Shown here piece by piece: positions 670-37,238 of a stretch of DNA of 40,296 nt; position 1 is the stretch's first letter; every line of letters starts with the position of its first letter. Both the position numbers and the translations under genes were made by a program. The DNA lies in the IMG/VR virus record IMGVR_UViG_3300045242_000085, positions 1 through 40,296 of that record; one strand, given 5' to 3'. The notes beneath the pieces are model-generated. The model did not search any database, had not been told where the DNA came from, and saw only the letters and a list, made by a program, of their open reading frames with translations. The stretch comes from a virus.

Positions 670-957
670 TCACCCCGCTTCCTCTTCTGTGTAACGGTGA
701 GGACTCATCGAGAGTCCCCTGGCATCAAGGTAGGTGACAGTCACCCTGTAGCCCGGGGGCTTGACGTGAACCTTGGTATCGCTGCCCCAGGCAACTGGCC
801 CGGTGTACGGCATCGCATAGGAGCCCGGAGCGAAATCGAAGATGATGACCCGCCCCGGAAACTTCCTCACTTCTTCGACTGCCTGGCTCCAGAGCATCCG
901 CAGCTCACGTTCGGGCATCTCGGGAGTGACGTGGATCACCCTGGAGTCGTCCATCAC
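670..957 (-). CDS. Hypothetical phage protein, 95 aa
   Basis: The protein begins MMDDSRVIHVTPEMPERELR, then has a helical stretch and a beta-rich segment (GRVIIFDFAPGS and HVKPPGYRVTVTYLDA). It is probably a small soluble alpha/beta protein. It overlaps the stop of the upstream gene by four bases (ATGA), so the two are likely translationally coupled. No catalytic motif or known family is recognised. Being directly downstream of the probable ssDNA-binding protein suggests an accessory role in DNA metabolism, which is only an inference from position. Confidence 0.7.
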   Translation of the reverse strand: MMDDSRVIHVTPEMPERELRMLWSQAVEEVRKFPGRVIIFDFAPGSYAMPYTGPVAWGSDTKVHVKPPGYRVTVTYLDARGLSMSPHRYTEEEAG

Positions 958-1487
958 GTCTCCGGAGTAGGTTCTTCTTCGGGCGGGATCATGATGTTCG
1001 CGCCGGCGCTGTCCGGGACGTCAACGTACTTCTGCTCAAGGGCGTCCTCGACCACCGTGACATAGATGGCCTTCAGGTACGCCTTGATCCCGTTCCTGCC
1101 GCTGACCTCCCAGTGATACGGCCTGATGATCATGTCGACGTTCTCGATCTCGGCCCAGTCAAGAATCGGGAGGAGCTCCTCCGTCAAGGGCGTCTTCCCG
1201 CGGCTTGTGATCAGGTAGACCCTCGGGATCGATCCGCGGCCGGCCTCTGCCGGGTACTTGACCGTCACCTCGAGGATGGGCTGAAGATCGTCTTCCTCGT
1301 TTCGGGGCTGCAGGAAGCGGACATTCCAGCCGTCCTTCATCATCCGTTCGCCGAGGTCCTCGTCAAGGGCGACGTTGAAGTTCCTCTGCCCCTTGGCGTT
1401 GTAGCGGCCGGGGAGTCCCGAGAAGTTTCGGAACAGGATCCGCACCCCCTCGAGAATCACCGGTTCGAGCTGCTGTCCCTTCGCCAT
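954..1487 (-). CDS. Probable ssDNA-binding-type phage protein
   Basis: This 177-residue protein starts MAKGQQLEPVILEGVRILF and contains FRNFSG at about 20-25, GQRNFNVALD at about 33-42, GWNVRFLQPR at 53-62, LDWAEIENVDMIIRPY at 108-123 and GIKAYLKAIYVTV at 132-144. I recognise this pattern from a conserved phage family in both actinophages and Firmicutes phages. The beta-rich body and acidic proline-containing C-terminal tail (EEEPTPET) resemble single-stranded-DNA-binding proteins, and it lies just downstream of the replication gene. The DNA-binding role is an inference; the family itself is more secure. The start overlaps the previous stop by one base. Confidence 0.6.
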   Translation of the reverse strand: MAKGQQLEPVILEGVRILFRNFSGLPGRYNAKGQRNFNVALDEDLGERMMKDGWNVRFLQPRNEEDDLQPILEVTVKYPAEAGRGSIPRVYLITSRGKTPLTEELLPILDWAEIENVDMIIRPYHWEVSGRNGIKAYLKAIYVTVVEDALEQKYVDVPDSAGANIMIPPEEEPTPET

Positions 1488-2955: not shown

Positions 2956-5900
2956 CTAACTGATAAACTCGTCGACGTCGCCGAAGTTGGCGAGGGCCTT
3001 GACCGCCGTCTCCTTCAGCTTCTCGAAGTAGCTCATGTCTATGTCGTCCTCAAGTCCGAGGTCCTTGACGACCACAGCCTCTTTCCAGAAGTAGTCCTTG
3101 GTGCCGGAGACGGCGCCTTGCTTATCGCCGTCTATCCGTATCAGCTTTCCTCCGCCCGTGCCTTCCCTGACAGGGACGAAGCTGCCGGCACCGCCGATGA
3201 ACTGCGGACCGTTCCCGGAGTCCAGGTAGATATAGCCCTTCCTGACTTCCTTGGTCTCACAGAAGTCCTCGAAGACGAGCGGCTTGTGGCTGAATAGCGT
3301 CTTGAAGACGTACGGACGGGAGAACTGAACTCCCACGGCGGTCCACGTCGAAGGAACGCCTCCCTTGCCGACGTAGTCGGCATCGTTGATGAGGCAGAAT
3401 TTGTCGTAGTGGGCCTCATACTCGAACTCGTAGCCGTAGTCCTCGCCGAACTTGGTTACGAATTCGATTATGGCAGAATCTCCCCCCGGGATTTTTATGG
3501 AATCCGTTTTGATATGGATCACCTGATAACCGCGAGATTGTACAGCGTTCTTCAAGGCAATCATGAACAGAGCGCCGCGTTTGGCGACGATGTTATCCTT
3601 GTTGCGGATATCCCGGAATGCGTTGTCGAAGCTAGCCGACGTCAGCCCGTAGACCGTGTTGATGACGATCTTCAGAGCATATGCGAGAGCGTCAGCGTCC
3701 TCTTCCGAGGAAAGATAGGGAGCAAGAGCACCACCGAGCAGCCGTCGCGCTCGATCGTAATCTCTCCGCTTGATAGCAATCCGAGCTGCTTTGAGATCCG
3801 CGAAATTCTTCGTGTAAGGTCCGAACAGGTCGAGCAGTTCGATGGAGGTTGGATGCATCGAGGCGACATCCAGAACCGCCACGTCTTGGTACATCCCGGG
3901 TTCAGAATATACGTACCCTCCTTCACCGACTACCTCCCCCTTGTAGGTGCTCTTCCCGAAGTCGTAGACGTAGCCAGGGAACAGCTGTGACAGATCCGTG
4001 TAGACGAAGTCAGCTTGTGGCTGCTTGACGTCCCCGAATATGATCCTCGCGGTGTGGTTGTAGGTCGTTTGGTTGACGGGCAGGCCGCTGAGCGCAGACA
4101 GCATCTGACGGGCTGCGAAATCCTGTCGCCGGGCGTTGAAGACTGCTTCCTCGGTCCTGACGTCGTTCTCGCAGTAGTCCAGAACCTGCGGCCAGAGTTC
4201 TTCTGGCACTGGCTCATCCCAGGGCAGGCCTAGTTCCTTGTGGTTGAGGCCAAGATCGATCTGGAACTTCTTCAACGTCGCCTTGACGCTGGAGATGTCC
4301 AGGATATCGGCATACGAAAGACTGTAGGCCGCCCCGAACATTGCGTTCTGATCGCCGCGTGTGATGATCCGCTGGCTGAGCTTGAAGAGCTCCTCGTTGC
4401 TGTAGCCCATGACGCCACGAGCGTAGAGGATGTGGTTGTCGTACCGGCGGTTATTGAACCCGACGAGACGCCTCTTCAAGAGCTCCTCAACGTCCGAAGA
4501 CGACGGGTTGAGCATCCTGTAGACGGTGTCGACGTCCTCGACCTTCCAGCAGACGACGAAGAGATTAGGGAAGACCTCGACGTCGTAGAAGACCAGCCTC
4601 GTGTCCTCGGGTTCGGGGCCAGCTTCGATCTCCGCCTCCGAGGAAAACTTCATGTCGTTCACCCTGGCGATGCAGTACTCGGCCTGATTGGACGAGCTGA
4701 GAGCGAAGACCAGGATCCTCTGCTTCATATCGCTCACGTCGTACGGCATCCCGGAAGCGTAGGCCTCCTCAAGGATGTGATGGATGAAGTCGATGCTCGG
4801 CTTGGTGTAAGGGTGCACCTCCTTGTTGAGACCCTTCAGGATCTGTGACCTGAGATGCCTCTCATCTTGCGTAGTTCTTGGGTTGAGCACTTTCTTCTTC
4901 TCCTTAAGAGGAAGCCCGTCGAACATCTCCTCCACAGGGATGTTGTTGCAAGTCGACAGCCGCCGGCGAAGGGAAGAATCGCCGGGGTATGTCTTGACCT
5001 CAATCCCAGGTCCGTACTCTCTGGCAAGTGTTTCGACATCCCCCACATAGATATAATGCAGGTGGATGCCTCTTCCGCTCATACTGTATTCAGAGTAGGT
5101 GGGCTTGAGTTCGCTTGCTGCTTCCAGGTTCAGTTCCGCGCTTTTCTGACCATCATCTCCCCTCAAGTCGAAGTCGATGACGATATGATTCTCCGGCACC
5201 TTGACGTAATGCAGTCTCGTTGTATCGAGATCTCTGAGTTTCGTCTTGACGTTTTCCCACTTCTTGGGTGGCTTTCCGTCTTCGTCAGCATACTGTGCCG
5301 GCATGTCAGCAAGAAGTTCGTCGAGAAGAGAGGTCGTCTCATCCATGACAAGCGAAGGGGGTGGCTTTACGAAGGCTTGGGTATTCCCGAGACTTCTTAG
5401 CCTGAATCCTGAGTGCCAGCGCCGGACATCGTGTCCTCGAACGAAGGCACGAAGCTCGAACTTCGTATAGCACTTCTTGAGCTCCAGTTCGAAAGTAGTC
5501 CTATCGAGACGTTTGGGGTAGTTGCCCGCCTCGAACCACTGATTGTAGAGGTTGTATGCCTCTGTGGTAGTGACTCCTTCCTTTCCCAGGAAGTAATCGT
5601 CATGCTCCGACATGAACATCCGGAACTGGTTCGTGTGGACCTGCATGAATTCAGGCTTGTAAGCATCGTACCGGTGCGGGCCAGCTTCTCTGTACACTTC
5701 CCGGCAGTGATATGCGATCGCCCCTATTTCGAAACGGATCCGTCCGGTTATGATGTCGAAGTCGTCAAGTTCGTTTCCGTTCGTATAGGCATCGATCAGA
5801 CGCCTGTTCAATCCGGAATTGTTAGTGATCTCGATAAGATCGTTGGTTCCAAGGAACAGGAAGGTATGAACCTCGATTTGGACTTCGTCTCGGTACTTCG

Positions 5901-6651
5901 CTTCAAGGCCTTGTGCCTCGCGGGCGACGATCGTGTTAAGGACTGTGTTGTCCTGGACATCCCGCAAGCTTCCGTCGTACTGAATGGCAACTTTTGGGTT
6001 GTTCCTGAATACGGAAGCCGCGAAGTTCCTCTGGTTAGAGGCGAGTTTCTTGGCATTGAACGGAACCCAGTATCCGTAGAAGAGCTGCGCCAGGATATCC
6101 AGGAACGTTCCCTTGCCCGTTCCAGGCTCTCCGTAGATGGAGACGAACTTCTGGATCTTGTCCTGATCTCCTGCGAGAATAGCTCCCACAGCCCATTCGA
6201 GCTTGTGCCGCTCGATTGGATCGTAGCAGCAGCTTATGAACTTTTCGTAATACTCTATCGAGCCTTCTTTGATGTCGTAAGGAAGCCTGACGGAGCTGTA
6301 ATCTTCTTTCCTCGGAGGATCGCTCGCGAAGACAAAGATCTGATTGAGAGTTGCCGGGGTGTCTGGACGGGTTTTGCAGTACTGCTCAAATGAGTACATC
6401 ATGCGGTTCTCGGTGTTTACAAGGAGCTTGGGTATCGCGCTAAGCCTGTTGGCTTCGGTCCTGAGCTCATCGTCTACGATCTGGATAAGTTCGTCCAGGT
6501 CTTCGGACCAGCACCCAAGACGTTCGCTCCATATCGCTTTGAACTTCCCGTCCTTGATCATGATGTCCTTGGACTTCCTTCCGCGGAAGCCAGGATATAC
6601 TACGGGTCCTTTCTTTGCATCGGGATCCAGAACGACATCGAAGAAATCCAT
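2956..6651 (-). CDS. Helicase / primase-like / family B DNA polymerase fusion
   Basis: One uninterrupted 1231-residue protein. The N-terminal part has a P-loop GEPGTGKGT (174-182), a Walker B-like VAIQYDG (221-227), a motif C-like FLFLGTN (264-270) and NRRL (282-285), as in SF3/D5-type helicases. A middle segment has DFD (493-495), SMSGRGIHLH (523-532) and GIEVKTY (549-555), resembling the DxD, sxH and third motifs of AEP primases. The C-terminal part is a family B polymerase: Exo I YDVE (689-692), Exo II NRRYD (734-738), Exo III YCENDV (827-832), motif A DVASMHPTSI (928-937), motif B KIVINTVYG (994-1002) and motif C KTDS (1048-1051). The start ATG follows GAGGAGGGG. It probably unwinds and copies phage DNA. 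Whether the AEP-like segment is active is unknown. Confidence 0.88.
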   Translation of the reverse strand: MDFFDVVLDPDAKKGPVVYPGFRGRKSKDIMIKDGKFKAIWSERLGCWSEDLDELIQIVDDELRTEANRLSAIPKLLVNTENRMMYSFEQYCKTRPDTPATLNQIFVFASDPPRKEDYSSVRLPYDIKEGSIEYYEKFISCCYDPIERHKLEWAVGAILAGDQDKIQKFVSIYGEPGTGKGTFLDILAQLFYGYWVPFNAKKLASNQRNFAASVFRNNPKVAIQYDGSLRDVQDNTVLNTIVAREAQGLEAKYRDEVQIEVHTFLFLGTNDLIEITNNSGLNRRLIDAYTNGNELDDFDIITGRIRFEIGAIAYHCREVYREAGPHRYDAYKPEFMQVHTNQFRMFMSEHDDYFLGKEGVTTTEAYNLYNQWFEAGNYPKRLDRTTFELELKKCYTKFELRAFVRGHDVRRWHSGFRLRSLGNTQAFVKPPPSLVMDETTSLLDELLADMPAQYADEDGKPPKKWENVKTKLRDLDTTRLHYVKVPENHIVIDFDLRGDDGQKSAELNLEAASELKPTYSEYSMSGRGIHLHYIYVGDVETLAREYGPGIEVKTYPGDSSLRRRLSTCNNIPVEEMFDGLPLKEKKKVLNPRTTQDERHLRSQILKGLNKEVHPYTKPSIDFIHHILEEAYASGMPYDVSDMKQRILVFALSSSNQAEYCIARVNDMKFSSEAEIEAGPEPEDTRLVFYDVEVFPNLFVVCWKVEDVDTVYRMLNPSSSDVEELLKRRLVGFNNRRYDNHILYARGVMGYSNEELFKLSQRIITRGDQNAMFGAAYSLSYADILDISSVKATLKKFQIDLGLNHKELGLPWDEPVPEELWPQVLDYCENDVRTEEAVFNARRQDFAARQMLSALSGLPVNQTTYNHTARIIFGDVKQPQADFVYTDLSQLFPGYVYDFGKSTYKGEVVGEGGYVYSEPGMYQDVAVLDVASMHPTSIELLDLFGPYTKNFADLKAARIAIKRRDYDRARRLLGGALAPYLSSEEDADALAYALKIVINTVYGLTSASFDNAFRDIRNKDNIVAKRGALFMIALKNAVQSRGYQVIHIKTDSIKIPGGDSAIIEFVTKFGEDYGYEFEYEAHYDKFCLINDADYVGKGGVPSTWTAVGVQFSRPYVFKTLFSHKPLVFEDFCETKEVRKGYIYLDSGNGPQFIGGAGSFVPVREGTGGGKLIRIDGDKQGAVSGTKDYFWKEAVVVKDLGLEDDIDMSYFEKLKETAVKALANFGDVDEFIS

Positions 6652-7222: not shown

Positions 7223-7940
7223 CTGGTTTTCCGTACCCGAGAACTGTCTCCGAGAAGCTTGCCTCCTTCAAGATGATCTCCATGTCAAGCGTCATCCGCT
7301 CGTTGCGGATATAGACGATGCTGGGATCCTCGGACAGCTCTCCGAACTTGAGGAAGAAGTTCTCGCCGGCAATCGAGATGTCATTCAGTGGACTGTCCCG
7401 CTCGTCGGTCAGGACACCGTCTCCGGAATACCAGGTCAAGGTGACCTTACTGAACTCTAGGCCCTCTTCGAGGTGTTCGTCCCGGCTGACGACGTAGGGG
7501 ACGAGAGTGTCTCGTAGGACACCGCTCTGTAGGACAGGGCCTTCGTCGCTCCCGTCCTCCTCGTCTGGACCGATGTCGTCGTCATCCACCTCGTCGCGTT
7601 CGCTCTGTACAAATCCGAGGGAGAGGCTGGGGAGGTCTCCCTTGTTTGCGGCGAGCAGGGCGCGCTCAGCATCTGTGAGGGCGCGGATGTTTTCGGGATC
7701 GACTCGGATTCCCAGGGCGGCCGAGACCCTGGCCGTGTCGGCGTTATCACCGTCACCGGCAGACGAGGCTGCAGCTTTATCCGCGTAGTAGGACTTGACT
7801 CCGGCGACTTCCTTGGCGATCTGCTTGTCAAGCGTGCGCCGGGTGAGGAGCCATCCAGATACGGCCCCGACGCCAAGGCCAAGAACAGCACCAAGTAGAA
7901 CACTAGCCCCATCGATTCTCGCTCCTTTGATGTTGATCAT
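7215..7940 (-). CDS. Membrane-anchored phage protein, 241 aa
   Basis: A single hydrophobic segment at about residues 12-32 (GASVLLGAVLGLGVGAVSGW) is followed by a basic patch (LTRRTLDKQ), a Ser/Asp-rich linker and an acidic stretch (DEVDDDDIGPDEEDGSDEG). The C-terminal beta-rich domain includes VTLTWYSGDGVLTDE and NEMTL-type strands (YIRNERMTLDMEIILKEA). The layout suggests a protein anchored by its N-terminus with a soluble domain. The ATG overlaps the stop of the DUF6353-like gene by four bases, so the two are coupled. I do not know a function. The acidic linker separates anchor and domain. Confidence 0.7.
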   Translation of the reverse strand: MINIKGARIDGASVLLGAVLGLGVGAVSGWLLTRRTLDKQIAKEVAGVKSYYADKAAASSAGDGDNADTARVSAALGIRVDPENIRALTDAERALLAANKGDLPSLSLGFVQSERDEVDDDDIGPDEEDGSDEGPVLQSGVLRDTLVPYVVSRDEHLEEGLEFSKVTLTWYSGDGVLTDERDSPLNDISIAGENFFLKFGELSEDPSIVYIRNERMTLDMEIILKEASFSETVLGYGKPGG

Positions 7941-8806
7941 ATTGCGATCGGACCGTCCACGTTGAAGTCGAGGAAGATGGACGGAACTTCCCCGTTGATG
8001 AAGTCGCGGTTACGCTCCTCGTCCGCGTACAGGCCGAAGTCGACGTATCCGTCGCCGTCGCCGTCGTTCCTCCAGCCGACGACCTGGCCGGCCTGGGTCC
8101 AGTCGAAGCCGAGCATGTCGTAGACCTCGTTCAGGAACAGGAAGCCCTTGGCGTTTAGCATGTCGTTCGCGCTGCGCTCGAAGACCCGGAGCTGCATCAT
8201 GTTCCACTCGGGGGTCTTGCTCCAGTGGATGTTGAACTGGTCGTAGAAGCGGCCATACTGAGACGGCCTGTCCGCGTCCTTGTCGATCTCGTAGACCGGT
8301 TCCTCGCTCTCGACCTGGTCGACTGCCCGCATCACAGGCCGGCGGTAGAGCTCACGCTCCTTCTCCTCGCCGATCTCCTCGCGGACACGCTGCCTGTAAG
8401 CCTTGAAGCCGGCGTCCAGAGCGGTATACGCGGCAACCAGGGCCGTTTGCTTGCGCTGCATCAGGCCGTGGGCAGATATGACGCAGATAACGCTCATGCC
8501 GCCAGCGGCGATGGCCGGGGAGAAGATCTTGGCGATCTCCAGGCCCCTGTGGACGTACAGCCGGCCGATCTCCTGCTGCTTGTCCCGTTTGGTGTATTCC
8601 TTGGTGACCTCCTTGCTGGTGATGATGTGCGCGTCGGCCCTCAGCTCCTCCAAGGGCTTCTGGGCCTTGAGGACGGCCTTGCCGACGAGGTAGGTGGTGG
8701 CACCGAAGCCGACGACGCCGATTCCGGTGAGGATCTCCGGGCCGTGCTTCTTCAAGAAGAGCTCGGTTTGCCCGGCGAATCGCTTGGCGATTGCTTCCAT
8801 ACTCAT
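7937..8806 (-). CDS. DUF6353-like membrane protein, copy 1
   Basis: This 289-residue protein has two hydrophobic helices, at about 24-45 (EILTGIGVVGFGATTYLVGK) and about 92-112 (SPAIAAGGMSVICVISAHGL). Each is followed by basic sequence. The signature ALVAAYTALDAGFKAYRQRV follows the second helix, and a soluble C-terminal half contains FNIHWSKTPEWNMMQLRVFE. I recognise this as DUF6353-like, a family of unknown function from Firmicutes and actinobacterial phages. A second copy at 10468-11271 has the same plan. The ATG follows AGGAGAAACGAA. It begins a coupled pair with the next membrane protein. Confidence 0.7.
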   Translation of the reverse strand: MSMEAIAKRFAGQTELFLKKHGPEILTGIGVVGFGATTYLVGKAVLKAQKPLEELRADAHIITSKEVTKEYTKRDKQQEIGRLYVHRGLEIAKIFSPAIAAGGMSVICVISAHGLMQRKQTALVAAYTALDAGFKAYRQRVREEIGEEKERELYRRPVMRAVDQVESEEPVYEIDKDADRPSQYGRFYDQFNIHWSKTPEWNMMQLRVFERSANDMLNAKGFLFLNEVYDMLGFDWTQAGQVVGWRNDGDGDGYVDFGLYADEERNRDFINGEVPSIFLDFNVDGPIAI

Positions 8807-10467: not shown

Positions 10468-11271
10468 TCAGAAACACTTGCCGAAATCCGCCCGCGGATT
10501 GTTGATGTAGCTGAAGGCGAGAGCTGGGATTCCGTCTGGGTGGAGGTGGGACGTGATAGCGAGCTTGACCCGGTTATCCATGTTCCAGCCGACCACCTCG
10601 CCCTCTTCCGTGTGCTCGAGGTTGAGCTCGTCGTAGAACTCGTTGAGGCTGGCGTACATGTCGTTGCCGATCCGGAAGTTGATCTCGACCTCGGCGTGAC
10701 GGATCTTGTCAGCATCGGAACGAAAGTAGCGCCCTGTCCAAGCCTCGAAGCAGAGCACGTCACTCCCCGATGAGAGGATGATCTCCTTACTTGGAGAGCC
10801 GGCCTTCTCGATCTGGGCCGCGGCGACCTTCTCCTGGATCGCCTCTTCCTTCTTCGGACCCAGCTCCTCGAGTACCTTGTCCTTGTACTCGCGGAACGTG
10901 TTGTCTGCAAGTGCGTAGGCCGCCACGAGGGCCGCGTTGCGGTTGGTCTCGATCTTGTTCGAGGCGACGATGCAGGCGATCGTGATGGCGCCGGTGACGC
11001 CAGCCGGAATATAGAACTTCCAGGTCGCCTTGAAGATCTCCATGGGCGGTAGCTTGGTGCTGCGCGCCGTGTCCTGATCCTTGAGGAGCGGGCCGGCCTC
11101 TGCGGCCTTCTCGTCCTTGACGTTGCTGATGGCCTTGACGGCCTTGGGCGTTCCCCTGACTGCGAGGATCGCGGTGGTGACTACGCCGGCGATCGCGACG
11201 CCGGACAGTATTGCTGGCGAGTTTCGCTTGGCGAATTCGCTGATGTCACTCGCGAACGATGACATGTCCAT
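10468..11271 (-). CDS. DUF6353-like membrane protein, copy 2
   Basis: This 267-residue protein has two hydrophobic segments: NSPAILSGVAIAGVVTTAIL (about 15-35) and PAGVTGAITIACIVASNKIE (about 93-112). It then has RNAALVAAYALADNTFREYK, which aligns with ALVAAYTALDAGFKAYRQRV of the copy at 7937-8806. The second half is soluble and contains VLCFEAWTGRYFRSDADKIR and EVVGWN, paralleling QVVGWR in the other copy. The two are clearly paralogs of one plan but well diverged. A GGAGGAAAG ribosome site precedes the ATG. It follows a terminator-like hairpin at 11293-11315. Confidence 0.7.
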   Translation of the reverse strand: MDMSSFASDISEFAKRNSPAILSGVAIAGVVTTAILAVRGTPKAVKAISNVKDEKAAEAGPLLKDQDTARSTKLPPMEIFKATWKFYIPAGVTGAITIACIVASNKIETNRNAALVAAYALADNTFREYKDKVLEELGPKKEEAIQEKVAAAQIEKAGSPSKEIILSSGSDVLCFEAWTGRYFRSDADKIRHAEVEINFRIGNDMYASLNEFYDELNLEHTEEGEVVGWNMDNRVKLAITSHLHPDGIPALAFSYINNPRADFGKCF

Positions 11272-23729: not shown

Positions 23730-24467
23730 CTATTGCGAACTTACCTTGAACGTGCCGTCGGGGAATATGACCACAGTATCCGCGATGATCTGGAACGTCT
23801 CCGGACCGGTCATCGAAACCATGCTGTCCGGCCCTATGACCGTGAACGTGGTATCTCCGTTGTCGATGACTTGCATGAGGGCATTGGTCTCGAACAAGTC
23901 GATGAGATCCATCGGATCCGGAAGCAACGGATCGTTCTCATCGTTGCCGTAGATAACATCCTCAAGGGCAGCTATGGCCTCTGGTTGAGTATCGTCGACC
24001 GTTATCACGAGGTGTGCGGTAGGTTTCCCCCCGGGGATTTTTTCAGGTAGAGTCGTGAAAGGCCATTCAAAAGCAACCGGATTCGTTTTCTCTCCGATAG
24101 TCTCGTAATCGGCCTTGGTCGGAAGCGCCAGGACGTTGTAGACGATGTGGATCTGCTGATCAGTCCTGTAACTGAACCCGAAAGCCCGCCTTGGCTGACC
24201 TGTCGCCGACCCGAAGATCCCGATGTACGGTTCAAGCTCATCCGGATAGGTAAACGCGGATATGCTCCCGGAGAACGGTGCCGCTACGTTTCGCTCCCTG
24301 TACTTGACTCCGTCGAAATATCGAGGATCCTTCGTGGAGTCTGAGACCTCGGTGACGGATATGAGCCCGTTCCAGGCAACGCCAGGATCATCTCCGGGGA
24401 ACAGGACTCCGTGACTGACCCCTGAGGTAAATATGCGATCCGAAGGGTCATCCCAGATTATCCTCAT
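23730..24467 (-). CDS. Major tail protein-like paralog C, 245 aa
   Basis: This protein shares the paralog pattern: GVSHGVLF, VAWNGLISV, AFTYPDEL, FGFSYRT, QIHIVYNVLA and ALEDVIYG. It aligns with the proteins at 24464-25120 and 25705-26376. It differs by a C-terminal extension of about 40 residues (DNGDTTFTVIGPDSMVSMTG, then a final FPDGTFKVSSQ) that resembles a small beta domain. It could be a tail tube subunit, a tube cap or a decorated tube protein. The ATG overlaps paralog B's stop (ATGA), so the two are coupled. Confidence 0.7.
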   Translation of the reverse strand: MRIIWDDPSDRIFTSGVSHGVLFPGDDPGVAWNGLISVTEVSDSTKDPRYFDGVKYRERNVAAPFSGSISAFTYPDELEPYIGIFGSATGQPRRAFGFSYRTDQQIHIVYNVLALPTKADYETIGEKTNPVAFEWPFTTLPEKIPGGKPTAHLVITVDDTQPEAIAALEDVIYGNDENDPLLPDPMDLIDLFETNALMQVIDNGDTTFTVIGPDSMVSMTGPETFQIIADTVVIFPDGTFKVSSQ

Positions 24468-25120
24468 ACTCCGCTCCCTATCTCCAACTCTATCAGGAGA
24501 CCGAGTTCCGCTGCAGTCGGCATCCGCGGATCAGTGGTAGCCGTCCCGTAGAGAATATCCTCGAGGGACGCGATGTCAGCCGGATCGTACTCCGCAGTGT
24601 TGATAATGAAGTGCGACGTCGGCTTGGGCCACACTCCATAGAGGGGCTCGGTGGTAATCGACCATGTGCGAGGCTTCACGTTGGGCTTCTCGGCAATGGT
24701 CTCGTTCACGAACTCCGGGCTCTTGGCGGTGACGTTGTAGACGATATGAATCTGGTAGGCCCCGTAAAGCCCTCTGACATCATCGCCTATGAGTGTCCGG
24801 TAGGAGAACCCGAACTTCTTCCTGATTTGATCACAGGCAAATAGCCCCGGAGCCAAATTCAGGATTCCGACACAGGGATCGAATGCCTTGGGGAAGGAAA
24901 ATGCCTCGATCGTCGCCGAGTACTCCTCGAGGGAGACCAGGTTGATGATCTTGTCTCCGTCGAGATAGACCTCCTTGGAAGTCCCGCCGACAGGAGCTTC
25001 GGAGATCTTGGTGAGACCGTTCCAGACAACTCCGGGATCGGAACCGACATAGAGCATTCCGTGATCTATTCCGGTCTGGAAAGTCCGAGCGCCTACTGCA
25101 TCCCATTCGGCTCTGGGCAC
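24464..25120 (-). CDS. Major tail protein-like paralog B, 218 aa
   Basis: This protein starts with GTG (AGGAGGAGAC before it) and carries GIDHGMLYV, VVWNGLTKI, EAFSFPKAF, FGFSYRT, YQIHIVYNV and SLEDILYG, the same order as paralog A. It lacks paralog C's extension. Together the three proteins look like products of gene duplication, with the chaperone-like gene sitting between A and B. It may be a second tube protein, perhaps used at one end of the tail. That role is an inference. Confidence 0.7.
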   Translation of the reverse strand: MPRAEWDAVGARTFQTGIDHGMLYVGSDPGVVWNGLTKISEAPVGGTSKEVYLDGDKIINLVSLEEYSATIEAFSFPKAFDPCVGILNLAPGLFACDQIRKKFGFSYRTLIGDDVRGLYGAYQIHIVYNVTAKSPEFVNETIAEKPNVKPRTWSITTEPLYGVWPKPTSHFIINTAEYDPADIASLEDILYGTATTDPRMPTAAELGLLIELEIGSGV

Positions 25121-25704: not shown

Positions 25705-26376
25705 TTACGGTCCGCCTACCAGGTCAATGATCTCGTCGGGCGACGGCAGCTTGGGCGCGCCGGTGGCGCCGTAGAGGATGTCCTCGATCGACTTCATCTG
25801 GGCCGCGTCGAGCTTGGTCGAGTCGGCGACGATGAGGCTGGTTGGCGCCATGTCGGTGACGGGGACAGGAGTGCTGTTGATGTCCCACGAGAACGACAGG
25901 GCCTCCGGCGAGTCGTTGATCGTCGCGTAGGCCTTCTCCGAGGGAGAAGCGAGCAGGCCGTACACCATGTGGATCTTGTAGCCGAGCTCCTCGTCGACGT
26001 CGCTGCCGACTTTGGTGCGATACGAGATGCCGAACGTCGCCCGCGGCTGCTGGTTGATCTTGAGGCCATCGGTCGGCTCGACGCTGCCGTCGCACTGCCC
26101 GAACTCGTCGGGATAGGTGAAGGCCTCGATCGTGCCGCCGAAGGTCTCCGCCGACAACAGGTTGAGGTACTTGATGTTGTCCGCGTAGGCGGGGTTGGCC
26201 TCGGCGCCAGCAGGGGTCTCGGTGACGGTCGTCAGGCCGTTCCACGCGTAACCCTTGTCGTACGCCCCTGTTGCCTTGTTCAGGATGTAGAGGACCCCGT
26301 GATCGACACCGTGCTCGTACAGACGCTCTCCGGTGCCATCCCACGTGATCGGCCCAGTAGGGGTCGTCATGCTCAC
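25705..26376 (-). CDS. Major tail protein (tube), paralog A, 223 aa
   Basis: The protein starts MSMTTPTGPITWDGTGERLY and includes GVDHGVLYILNKATGAYDKG, YAWNGLTTVTETPAGAEANP, IEAFTYPDEF, TFGISYRTKVGSDVDEELGY, KIHMVYGLLASPSEKAYATI and SIEDILYG. This is the family of siphovirus major tail proteins I recall from actinophages and Firmicutes phages. Its position immediately after the joining proteins fits the true major tube protein. GAGGAGTGAGC precedes its start. Two paralogs follow it downstream. Confidence 0.8.
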   Translation of the reverse strand: MSMTTPTGPITWDGTGERLYEHGVDHGVLYILNKATGAYDKGYAWNGLTTVTETPAGAEANPAYADNIKYLNLLSAETFGGTIEAFTYPDEFGQCDGSVEPTDGLKINQQPRATFGISYRTKVGSDVDEELGYKIHMVYGLLASPSEKAYATINDSPEALSFSWDINSTPVPVTDMAPTSLIVADSTKLDAAQMKSIEDILYGATGAPKLPSPDEIIDLVGGP

Positions 26377-32348: not shown

Positions 32349-32864
32349 TTACGCTGTGTCTAGCAGCTGATCGAGATCTCCTGGAGTGACGTAGCCAGTC
32401 CAGTGATCATAGAGCGGATGACCGCCATCACGATAGCAGGCGGCGACGAGCTGAGAACAGATCATGTGGCCGGTAGATTCTATGTAAGCCTTGAGATGCG
32501 GAGCGGGGATATGAAAACGGCGCAGGACAAGGGCGCCGTAATCTGGCCACGAATACCCGATCTTTGCAGCCAAATATCGTCTACCGGCCAGCACGATCTC
32601 GGAACGCTCCTTGCCGGTCAGGTCGATCAGACCTGTCGACAGGCGATGCGGAATGTTCCGATACTTGTCGAGACTGTCCTCGTGGATACCACCACCAGTC
32701 ATCTCGATGATGCGGCCTTCGCCAACGCAGAGAGCGACGTGTTCGTACTTGCTGAAGCCGGTGCCGTTGAGGAACTGCATGATCGCGATGAGACGACCAC
32801 CCCGGCCGGCGATGTTGGTCAGGATGAAATCTCCTGGCTGAGGCGCGGCCATTTTGGGCATCAT
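32349..32864 (-). CDS. Permuted papain-like cysteine hydrolase (YiiX/NlpC-type)
   Basis: This 171-residue protein has PQPGDFILTNIAGRGGRLIA (8-27) and KYEHVALCVGEGRIIEM (39-55), with His 42 and Glu 54, and MICSQLVAACYRDGG (134-148) with Cys 136 in the C-terminal half. The His-before-Cys order marks the permuted NlpC/P60 or YiiX/LRAT-like fold. Such enzymes cut amide bonds in peptidoglycan peptides or lipids. No signal peptide is present. It overlaps the upstream gene by four bases, and it lies in the head-packaging region rather than beside the endolysin. Confidence 0.72.
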   Translation of the reverse strand: MMPKMAAPQPGDFILTNIAGRGGRLIAIMQFLNGTGFSKYEHVALCVGEGRIIEMTGGGIHEDSLDKYRNIPHRLSTGLIDLTGKERSEIVLAGRRYLAAKIGYSWPDYGALVLRRFHIPAPHLKAYIESTGHMICSQLVAACYRDGGHPLYDHWTGYVTPGDLDQLLDTA

Positions 32865-34817: not shown

Positions 34818-37238
34818 TTACAGTGGAGAGAAGATGAACAGCTTGTCGCGGGGATGGACAGGCACGATGACCTCTCCTCCTCTTCCGCGTATAGCCATTT
34901 TGACTGTAGACACAGTGATCACGGCGTCGGAGAATCCTTCACCGGAACTAGTGACTTGCATCTTCTTCAGACGGACATTGCCAGCGATCACGGCCATGTC
35001 CTGGCCAGCGCCGAGGATTGTCATCTTGTGCAGGCGGACTGCACCTGTTGCGACGGCTCTTCCGGTACCGGAGCCGGCAATCCCCATCTTCTTGAGGCTC
35101 ACCGCACTCTGGACATAGTTGACCTTCTGGGCGGATCCGTAGATCGACATCTTCTTCATGCCGACACTGCCGGTGACGTCGGAACGTCCGGCACCAGATC
35201 CAGCTACGCCCATCTTCTTCATGCTGATGGCACCAAAGCCGGCAGTTTGCGTACCGCCGATCCCAGAGATGCGCATCTTCTTGAGAGAGATAGTCACACT
35301 GGCAAAGATGAGCTTCTCGCCGGAACCGAAGACGGACATCTTCTTCAGCTTGACAGCGGAGGACGCGATAGCCTGTCCAGCGCCGGCAGCAGAGATGCCC
35401 ATCTTCTTCATGGAAACGGAAGCGAAGGCAGCAGTTTGCGTGCCGCCGATCCCGGCAACACCCATCTTCTTCAGGCTTACCGTTCCGGAACCAGCGGATG
35501 CTCCGGTACCGGTGCCTGAAACGCCCATCTTCTTGAGACGTATGTAACCGTCAGCGAAGATGTACTTCTCTCCCGAGCCGAAGAGTTTCATCTTCTTCAG
35601 GCTCACATTGCCCGACGCAGTAACCAGGACTGAGCCGGAACCGGCAACGCCCATCTTCTTCAGGTTCACAGCAGCAGTCACTACCGCAATGCCGGAACCG
35701 ATCCCCGAGACAGACATCTTCTTGAGAGAAACGTTGCCGGTCCCGACGCTTGCACCGGATCCAGCACCGGAAAAACGCATCTTCTTCAGGCCTACAGCGC
35801 CTGAGACGGCCGAAATCCCCGTAATCGTACCGGAGACGGCCATCTTCTTAGCTGAGATGGCCCCAGAAGCCGCTGAGAAGCCCGTAGACGAGCCGGACCC
35901 CAAAACCCCCATCTTATGTAGGGTAACGTTCCCGACGCCGTAGGAAGCCCCTGAGAGCGTTCCAGACACTGTCATCTTCTTGAGCTTGACAGCACCTGTT
36001 ACGGATGTTACTACAGTTACTGCTCCGGAGGCGCCCATCTTCTTCAGAGAAGGACCACCGCTGACTTGAGCGATCCCGGCCCCTGAACCAGAGAGAGTGC
36101 ACTTCTTCAAGACCGGGCTGCCAGAAGCTACGGATATGCCCGCTCCGGTTGCAGACACTCGCATCTTCTTCAAGCTGACGGTGGCTGAGGCCGTCACCAC
36201 GACGGAACCCGATCCAGAAATGCCCATCTTCTTGAGGCTCAAGGCTACGACGGCAACCGAGGTGCCGGAGCCCGTCCCCGAGATGGTTCTCTTCTTAAGA
36301 GTGACGCCTCCGGAGGCAGCGGACACCGCGCCAACCGCGACCGCGATGCCCATCTTTTTCAGGCTGACTGCGCCTGAAGCTGAAACAGGAACTGTTGCCG
36401 CCGACCCGGTAACGGACATCTTCTTCAGGCCAACTACACCTGTGACGACGGCATTTCCGATACCAGAAACAGCGACGCGCATCTTCTTCGAGCTGACTGC
36501 GCCTGTACCAACGGCGTTCCCGATAAGAGAACCGGTAACACCCATCTTCTTCGAGCTGACTGCGCCTGCACCTGAAGAATAAGACACACCTGGCTGCTCG
36601 ACAGTGCTGTATGCAAGGTCATCGAACCACATCTTCGGGACGGTGGCTTGCGCGATGGAGATCCCGAATATCGTAGATGCGATCGACGGCCCGAGGTTGA
36701 GAGTCGCGGCGCTAGTGAAGGTCTCTGTCGGCGTCTCACTGTCAGCGGAGTTGTAGTAACTGACCTTGAACTGGCCCACTGTGGCGCTAGCCTTTGCCCA
36801 GAACTCAACCCGGATCCACTGGTTAAGTGGAAGGTTGTTCGTGCTCGTCCACTGAGTCGCTGCAGCCGAGTCGCAGACCACCAGCTTGCCCGTGCTGGCA
36901 TACCTCAGGAAACAGCAAACCGTCGTAATCGGCGCGGCGCTGTAGAAACCAAAAATTCTCGAGTTGGCCGCGGGCGTAGAGGCGATGTAGATGTAGAACC
37001 GAGCGTACAGCTGGGAAATCGAGGTATTCCACCCGAAGTAGCAAGTGGTGGACGTGGCGCCGACCGCAAGAGCTGCCGACAGTGAGCCATGCGCCTTCTG
37101 CGTGTTCTCGTAGTTCAGCGTGCAGCCAGTTCCGATACTCGCGTAATCGAGTGCATCACCCGAAGCGCCGCCACTGTTAGCAGTAGTAACGGCGGTCGCG
37201 TTAGTTCCACCTTCTGCTGTCCAGTTCTTGGCGGCCAT
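34818..37238 (-). CDS. Lectin-like virion protein with 27 KKM repeats, 806 aa
   Basis: Residues 1-215 form a beta-sandwich pattern of the LamG/concanavalin type: AHGSLSAALAVGATSTTCYF, SQLYARFYIYIASTPAANSR, NLPLNQWIRVEFWAKASATV and VPKMWFDDLAYS. From about 226 to 785 there are 27 units of about 20-21 residues with the core GAVSLKKMGVSGSG (variants LHKM, KKR, KKC). Each unit should form one or two strands, so the array could be a long fibre or beta-solenoid with a basic stripe. The end (GGEVIVPVHPRDKLFIFSP) is not repeated. It probably binds the host surface. Confidence 0.75.
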   Translation of the reverse strand: MAAKNWTAEGGTNATAVTTANSGGASGDALDYASIGTGCTLNYENTQKAHGSLSAALAVGATSTTCYFGWNTSISQLYARFYIYIASTPAANSRIFGFYSAAPITTVCCFLRYASTGKLVVCDSAAATQWTSTNNLPLNQWIRVEFWAKASATVGQFKVSYYNSADSETPTETFTSAATLNLGPSIASTIFGISIAQATVPKMWFDDLAYSTVEQPGVSYSSGAGAVSSKKMGVTGSLIGNAVGTGAVSSKKMRVAVSGIGNAVVTGVVGLKKMSVTGSAATVPVSASGAVSLKKMGIAVAVGAVSAASGGVTLKKRTISGTGSGTSVAVVALSLKKMGISGSGSVVVTASATVSLKKMRVSATGAGISVASGSPVLKKCTLSGSGAGIAQVSGGPSLKKMGASGAVTVVTSVTGAVKLKKMTVSGTLSGASYGVGNVTLHKMGVLGSGSSTGFSAASGAISAKKMAVSGTITGISAVSGAVGLKKMRFSGAGSGASVGTGNVSLKKMSVSGIGSGIAVVTAAVNLKKMGVAGSGSVLVTASGNVSLKKMKLFGSGEKYIFADGYIRLKKMGVSGTGTGASAGSGTVSLKKMGVAGIGGTQTAAFASVSMKKMGISAAGAGQAIASSAVKLKKMSVFGSGEKLIFASVTISLKKMRISGIGGTQTAGFGAISMKKMGVAGSGAGRSDVTGSVGMKKMSIYGSAQKVNYVQSAVSLKKMGIAGSGTGRAVATGAVRLHKMTILGAGQDMAVIAGNVRLKKMQVTSSGEGFSDAVITVSTVKMAIRGRGGEVIVPVHPRDKLFIFSPL
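34930..36560 (-). repeat. Tandem coding repeats of about 60-63 bases
   Basis: The coding sequence of the KKM units repeats a block containing AAGAAGATG about every 60-63 bases (plus strand CATCTTCTT), over about 1.6 kb and 27 units. The spacers between these blocks vary in sequence but keep Gly/Ser/Val codons. Such a structure should allow unit gain or loss by recombination between repeats. Confidence 0.8.

Follow-up and report, generated by a model that had tools for sequence, protein, structure and literature searches.

The question raised by this locus is whether one long phage gene encodes the helicase, the primase and the polymerase of a replication fork in a single chain, and whether such an arrangement is new. 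The window, i.e., the whole stretch of DNA analyzed here (40,296 bases), is an entire IMG/VR virus record and also carries siphophage genes for a terminase, portal, head protease, major tail protein, tape measure protein, Dit, minor tail protein, holin and endolysin. Its length falls short of the about 60 kb of isolated relatives, e.g., Gordonia phage Pherobrine, and the phage genome is thus probably incomplete. The replicase gene is one uninterrupted frame of 1231 codons with an ATG start, and it lies on the minus strand, which the first-pass annotation had left out of its description. Several other minus-strand genes of the window were recorded in passing: upstream of the replicase gene, a DUF6353 protein encoded twice (7937 to 8806 and 10468 to 11271), three genes matching the major tail protein family phrog_2645 (23730 to 24467, 24464 to 25120 and 25705 to 26376), a gene near the terminase that matches the enoyl-CoA hydratase-like phage family phrog_1128 (32349 to 32864; 2e-16) and, amid the structural genes, an open reading frame of 806 amino acids with no PHROGs or Pfam match (34818 to 37238).

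Read from its N terminus, the protein begins with an SF3/D5 helicase, which is followed by an AEP-type primase, a small helical domain and, at the C-terminal end, a family B polymerase that includes a 3'-5' exonuclease. The PHROGs family phrog_4210 ("DNA polymerase") spans residues 1 to 1230 with 1602 bits (E = 0), and the order helicase, PriS-like domain, aHD and PolB in one chain is that of the GP55-type (phrog_4210) replicases. A Pfam search of the window protein placed only the helicase above the cut-off; recognition of the polymerase and the primase required PHROGs, profiles and structure. AlphaFold2 models of residues 1 to 690 and 430 to 1231, calculated from 65-row alignments, reached mean pLDDT values of 88.9 and 90.7, respectively. 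Their closest solved folds were SF3 primase-helicases (SaPI5, African swine fever virus [ASFV] PrimPol, NrS-1, and poxvirus D5/E5) and family B polymerases, so that the helicase and polymerase halves both gave the expected folds; TM-scores were modest because each structure query contained several domains. Among 165 aligned family members, K180, N270, R283, R284, D493, D495, H530 and E551 as well as D690, E692, D738, D830, D928 and D1050 do not vary, and K994 is replaced by Arg in two. The window protein thus has the domain architecture and the conserved catalytic residues of this family. With its activities judged from those of GP55, we are highly confident that it represents a GP55-type four-in-one replicase and the enzyme chiefly responsible for DNA replication in a tailed phage with relatives among the siphophages of Gordonia, Arthrobacter and Streptomyces.

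Table 1. Features of the replicase gene and its replication module in the window
Feature	Position in window	Strand	Basis
GP55-type multidomain replicase, 1231 aa	2956..6651	-	Single ORF; full-length phrog_4210 match, E = 0; 39% identity to GP55
N-terminal SF3/D5-type helicase region, residues 1-430 (AAA core about 145-300)	5362..6651	-	Pfam, TIGR01613, profile, fold
Walker A GEPGTGKGT, residues 174-182	6106..6132	-	GP55 alignment (K180 = GP55 K189); K180 invariant in 165 members
AEP (PriS-like) primase domain, residues 448-590	4882..5310	-	Prim-Pol in relatives; phrog_1829; invariant catalytic residues; D495 = GP55 D509
aHD-equivalent helical domain, residues 597-680	4612..4863	-	Model helices; Y637 = Y655 and F649 = F667 of GP55
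3'-5' exonuclease subdomain, residues 684-850	4102..4602	-	D690/E692 = GP55 D712/E714; D738 and D830 invariant; phrog_1252
Family B polymerase palm/fingers/thumb, residues 860-1231	2959..4074	-	Profile and fold; D928 = GP55 D949; motif C KTDS at 1048-1051
ssDNA-binding protein (PF24083), replication module	954..1487	-	PF24083, 2e-58; in 10/10 records checked

GP55 of Lactococcus phage 1706 (YP_001828703.1) was published in 2025 in NAR as a "four-in-one replicase," and helicase, primase, polymerase and exonuclease activities were demonstrated for the purified protein (PMC12205980). According to this report, GP55 unwinds DNA using UTP or dTTP, makes RNA primers at the site 5'-CCAAC-3' with a preference for GTP, performs primer extension, proofreading and strand displacement, and has over 1000 homologues by the authors' count (PMC12205980). 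Over 1212 aligned positions, the window protein and GP55 share 39% identity, and all seven mapped loss-of-function mutation sites are identical in the former (GP55 K189, D509, D712/E714, D949, Y655 and F667, corresponding to K180, D495, D690/E692, D928, Y637 and F649). The domain boundaries suggested by the first-pass annotation, at residues 440 and 680, nearly match the GP55 constructs 1-439 and 689-1317 (PMC12205980). By analogy with GP55, the N-terminal SF3 helicase would open the duplex and drive strand displacement, the AEP domain together with the helical aHD would synthesize short RNA primers, and the C-terminal family B polymerase would extend these primers and proofread with its own exonuclease; the exposed single strand would probably be coated by the PF24083 protein. 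Since identity is just 39%, UTP- or dTTP-dependent unwinding and priming at CCAAC need not carry over to the window protein.

The helicase region matches the Pfam models DUF5906 (5e-8) and Pox_D5 (0.014), the P4-type primase C-terminal model primase_Cterm (TIGR01613; 5e-7) and the SaPI5 primase-helicase 7ola in both profile (5e-7) and fold (3.5e-10) comparisons. Besides Walker A and the AAA fold, it contains the other signatures of an SF3 helicase, with the Walker B position at D226 (Glu in 4 of the 165 members), the sensor 1/motif C residue N270 and the arginine finger R283/R284. Such an ATPase might instead serve in origin opening or in loading, leaving the fork to be moved by a downstream SF2-type or a host helicase. 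Complete relatives indeed carry a downstream helicase gene (SF2-type) with weak DEAD-family matches, GP55 in solution is mainly a dimer and not a hexamer, and the helicase domain is dispensable for its de novo synthesis on M13 (PMC12205980). However, GP55 unwinds duplex DNA and requires its helicase for strand displacement (PMC12205980), and the Walker A lysine, the sensor 1 asparagine and the arginine finger are invariant, which makes a role limited to origin opening or loading unlikely. We therefore favor a helicase that would act at the fork as part of the replicase.

In the primase domain, which both models cover with high confidence, the DxD motif (D493/D495), the histidine (H530) and the third acidic motif (E551) of AEPs are all present. 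The family phrog_1829 matches this segment of the window protein at 3.6e-6; in 24 diverse family members, phrog_3022 ("DNA primase") matches every one (E ≤ 0.01), and Prim-Pol (PF09250) weakly matches 15 (E ≤ 0.1, best 0.0018). The window segment alone reached no Pfam model, and its profile gave only chance-level matches to solved structures, with no solved AEP among them. This weak similarity to known AEPs could point to a catalytically dead spacer, with another protein making the primers, a reading that we regard as very improbable: its four catalytic residues are invariant among the 165 members, primer synthesis by GP55 needs the PriS-like domain, as tested with the D509A mutant (PMC12205980), and a DnaG zinc ribbon was matched neither in nine isolated-phage records nor in the window. 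An active primase thus remains the preferred assignment. Behind it, model helices at residues 597 to 608, 616 to 633, 640 to 651 and 657 to 665 occupy the place of the aHD of GP55.

For the C-terminal part, phrog_1252 (DNA polymerase) matches residues 678 to 879 (1e-36), a profile comparison with E. coli Pol II gave 5e-7, and the best fold match of the model to PolB structures reached E 1e-15. The exonuclease motifs are Exo I (D690/E692), Exo II (around N734 to D738) and Exo III (Y826xxxD830); residue 734 in Exo II is Asn in 84 and Cys in 81 of the 165 members. Motif A (D928xxSMHP), motif B (K994...Y1001G1002) and motif C (K1048TDS) of the palm follow, completing the picture of a proofreading PolB except that motif C deviates. 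Family B polymerases usually have DTDS at this position; in all aligned members, Lys replaces the first Asp. Most of the 165 members came from scans that used KTDS as one of two patterns, but KTDS is also invariant in an unbiased set of 14 sequences gathered without it. The sites read by the first-pass annotation, namely Walker A at 174 to 182, motif C-like and arginine-finger-like sites, an AEP-like triad and Exo I to III, could all be located, and its claim of complete palm motifs A to C holds for A and B but has to be amended for the first residue of motif C. The missing Asp counts somewhat against the assignment, although GP55 is active with KTDS too. A text search for "KTDS" and "motif C" found neither term in the running text of PMC12205980.

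Next to its occurrence in the window, the family proved to be widespread. Matches were found in 261 phage records, with 80% or more of the query covered in 252, chiefly in phages of Arthrobacter, Gordonia and Streptomyces and, more distantly, in Lactococcus, Faecalibacterium and saliva phages; the predominance of actinobacterial isolates is due in part to the choice of phages that were sequenced. A scan of viral contigs with the family alignment yielded at least 569 relatives, whereas a scan with one sequence had recovered only two loci of the viral collection because its peptides were not conserved. Genome contigs contributed 135 relatives, largely in Firmicutes and other gut genomes, which presumably are prophages or phage contigs, and plasmids carried only polymerase-like fragments. 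Of 162 loci that were fetched, 153 have the gene as a full-length single frame, and most of the others are cut by contig ends. Together with the full-length phrog_4210 match, these 252 records confirm that helicase, primase-like segment and PolB form a single chain, and the window being known from an IMG/VR virus record and not from a cultured phage counts for little against these collinear relatives and the expression of GP55 as one protein (PMC12205980), so that a sequencing or assembly error joining two or three neighboring genes is ruled out for practical purposes.

Some loci stood out individually. On one bacterial contig (L170:5001-8979), the replicase gene is in two pieces with a break near residues 936 to 943, as might result from prophage decay or from an error in sequencing. 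Three full-length relatives (L164, L097 and L158) come from contigs assigned to the bins Bathyarchaeum, Saccharibacteria and Dependentiae, which may reflect unusual hosts or faulty binning. An extra helicase or primase copy near the gene was sought at all loci, and a true one was found only in Streptomyces phage Bing, where gp60 (L006:1480-1935), a separate gene of 151 amino acids located four genes upstream of the full-length replicase, resembles a shortened version of the replicase SF3 ATPase (24% identity to residues 135 to 321, E 1e-7) with an intact P-loop.

The PF24083 single-stranded DNA-binding protein (SSB) occurs together with the replicase in all ten records checked (nine isolated-phage records plus the window); in phages 1706 and Scap1, its annotation reads single strand annealing protein. 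DnaB and family A polymerase (PolA) had no match in these ten records, and DnaB none in nine records from viral contigs, which may all be fragments. Given this result and the lack of a DnaG zinc-ribbon match, the phages seem to rely on the GP55-type replicase. The idea of a "one-protein replisome" put forward in the first-pass annotation is not far from the model published for GP55 (PMC12205980), but the constant presence of the SSB and the DEAD-like helicase gene of complete relatives make "replicase plus SSB" the better description, in which we infer that replicase and SSB are functionally linked. Tentatively, and with more doubt than conviction, replicase and PF24083 SSB might form a complete two-component phage replisome, with the KTDS lysine as a family-specific tuning of the polymerase, e.g., for very short RNA primers from the adjoining primase domain.

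Although described at first as a rare arrangement, the window protein adds a member to an already published, large and widespread phage family and is not a new architecture. Having all core fork activities in one protein makes such an enzyme attractive for isothermal DNA amplification and for studies of very small replication machines, a case already made with GP55; what the window member contributes is a version like those of actinophages, with an SSB as its likely partner. While the emphasis of PMC12205980 is on human-associated phages, the surveyed isolates, mostly actinobacterial, indicate that the family is common beyond these. The KTDS lysine and the SSB co-occurrence are two details that were not found in the text of that paper.

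Comparison with known systems places the window protein as follows. GP55 has the same four domains in equal order, aligns over the full length and shares the KTDS motif C, but it has 1317 instead of 1231 residues, and about 60% of residues differ. Closer relatives are the "DNA primase/polymerase" proteins of Gordonia, Arthrobacter and Streptomyces phages (e.g., Pherobrine gp63), with about 47 to 52% identity over the whole length and an SSB gene downstream of the replicase, as in the window; their annotation leaves the helicase unmentioned. The AEP-SF3 primase-helicases (NrS-1 polymerase, SaPI5 7ola, and poxvirus D5) have a related helicase fold and likewise join helicase and primase in one chain, but unlike the window protein they are without a family B polymerase. 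In this class, the primase usually precedes the helicase. The phrog_1829 family, in which positions 48 to 123 match the primase segment and positions 487 to 739 the helicase segment, also has this primase-first order, the reverse of that in the window protein, which agrees with the first-pass observation that the primase here follows the helicase. The accessory helical domain of AEP-SF3 primase-helicases also differs from that of the GP55 type (PMC12205980). Finally, the window protein has the exonuclease motifs, palm motifs and fold in common with the family B polymerases E. coli Pol II, archaeal PolB and phi29 polymerase but, unlike these, carries its PolB behind a fused helicase and primase and with KTDS in place of DTDS.
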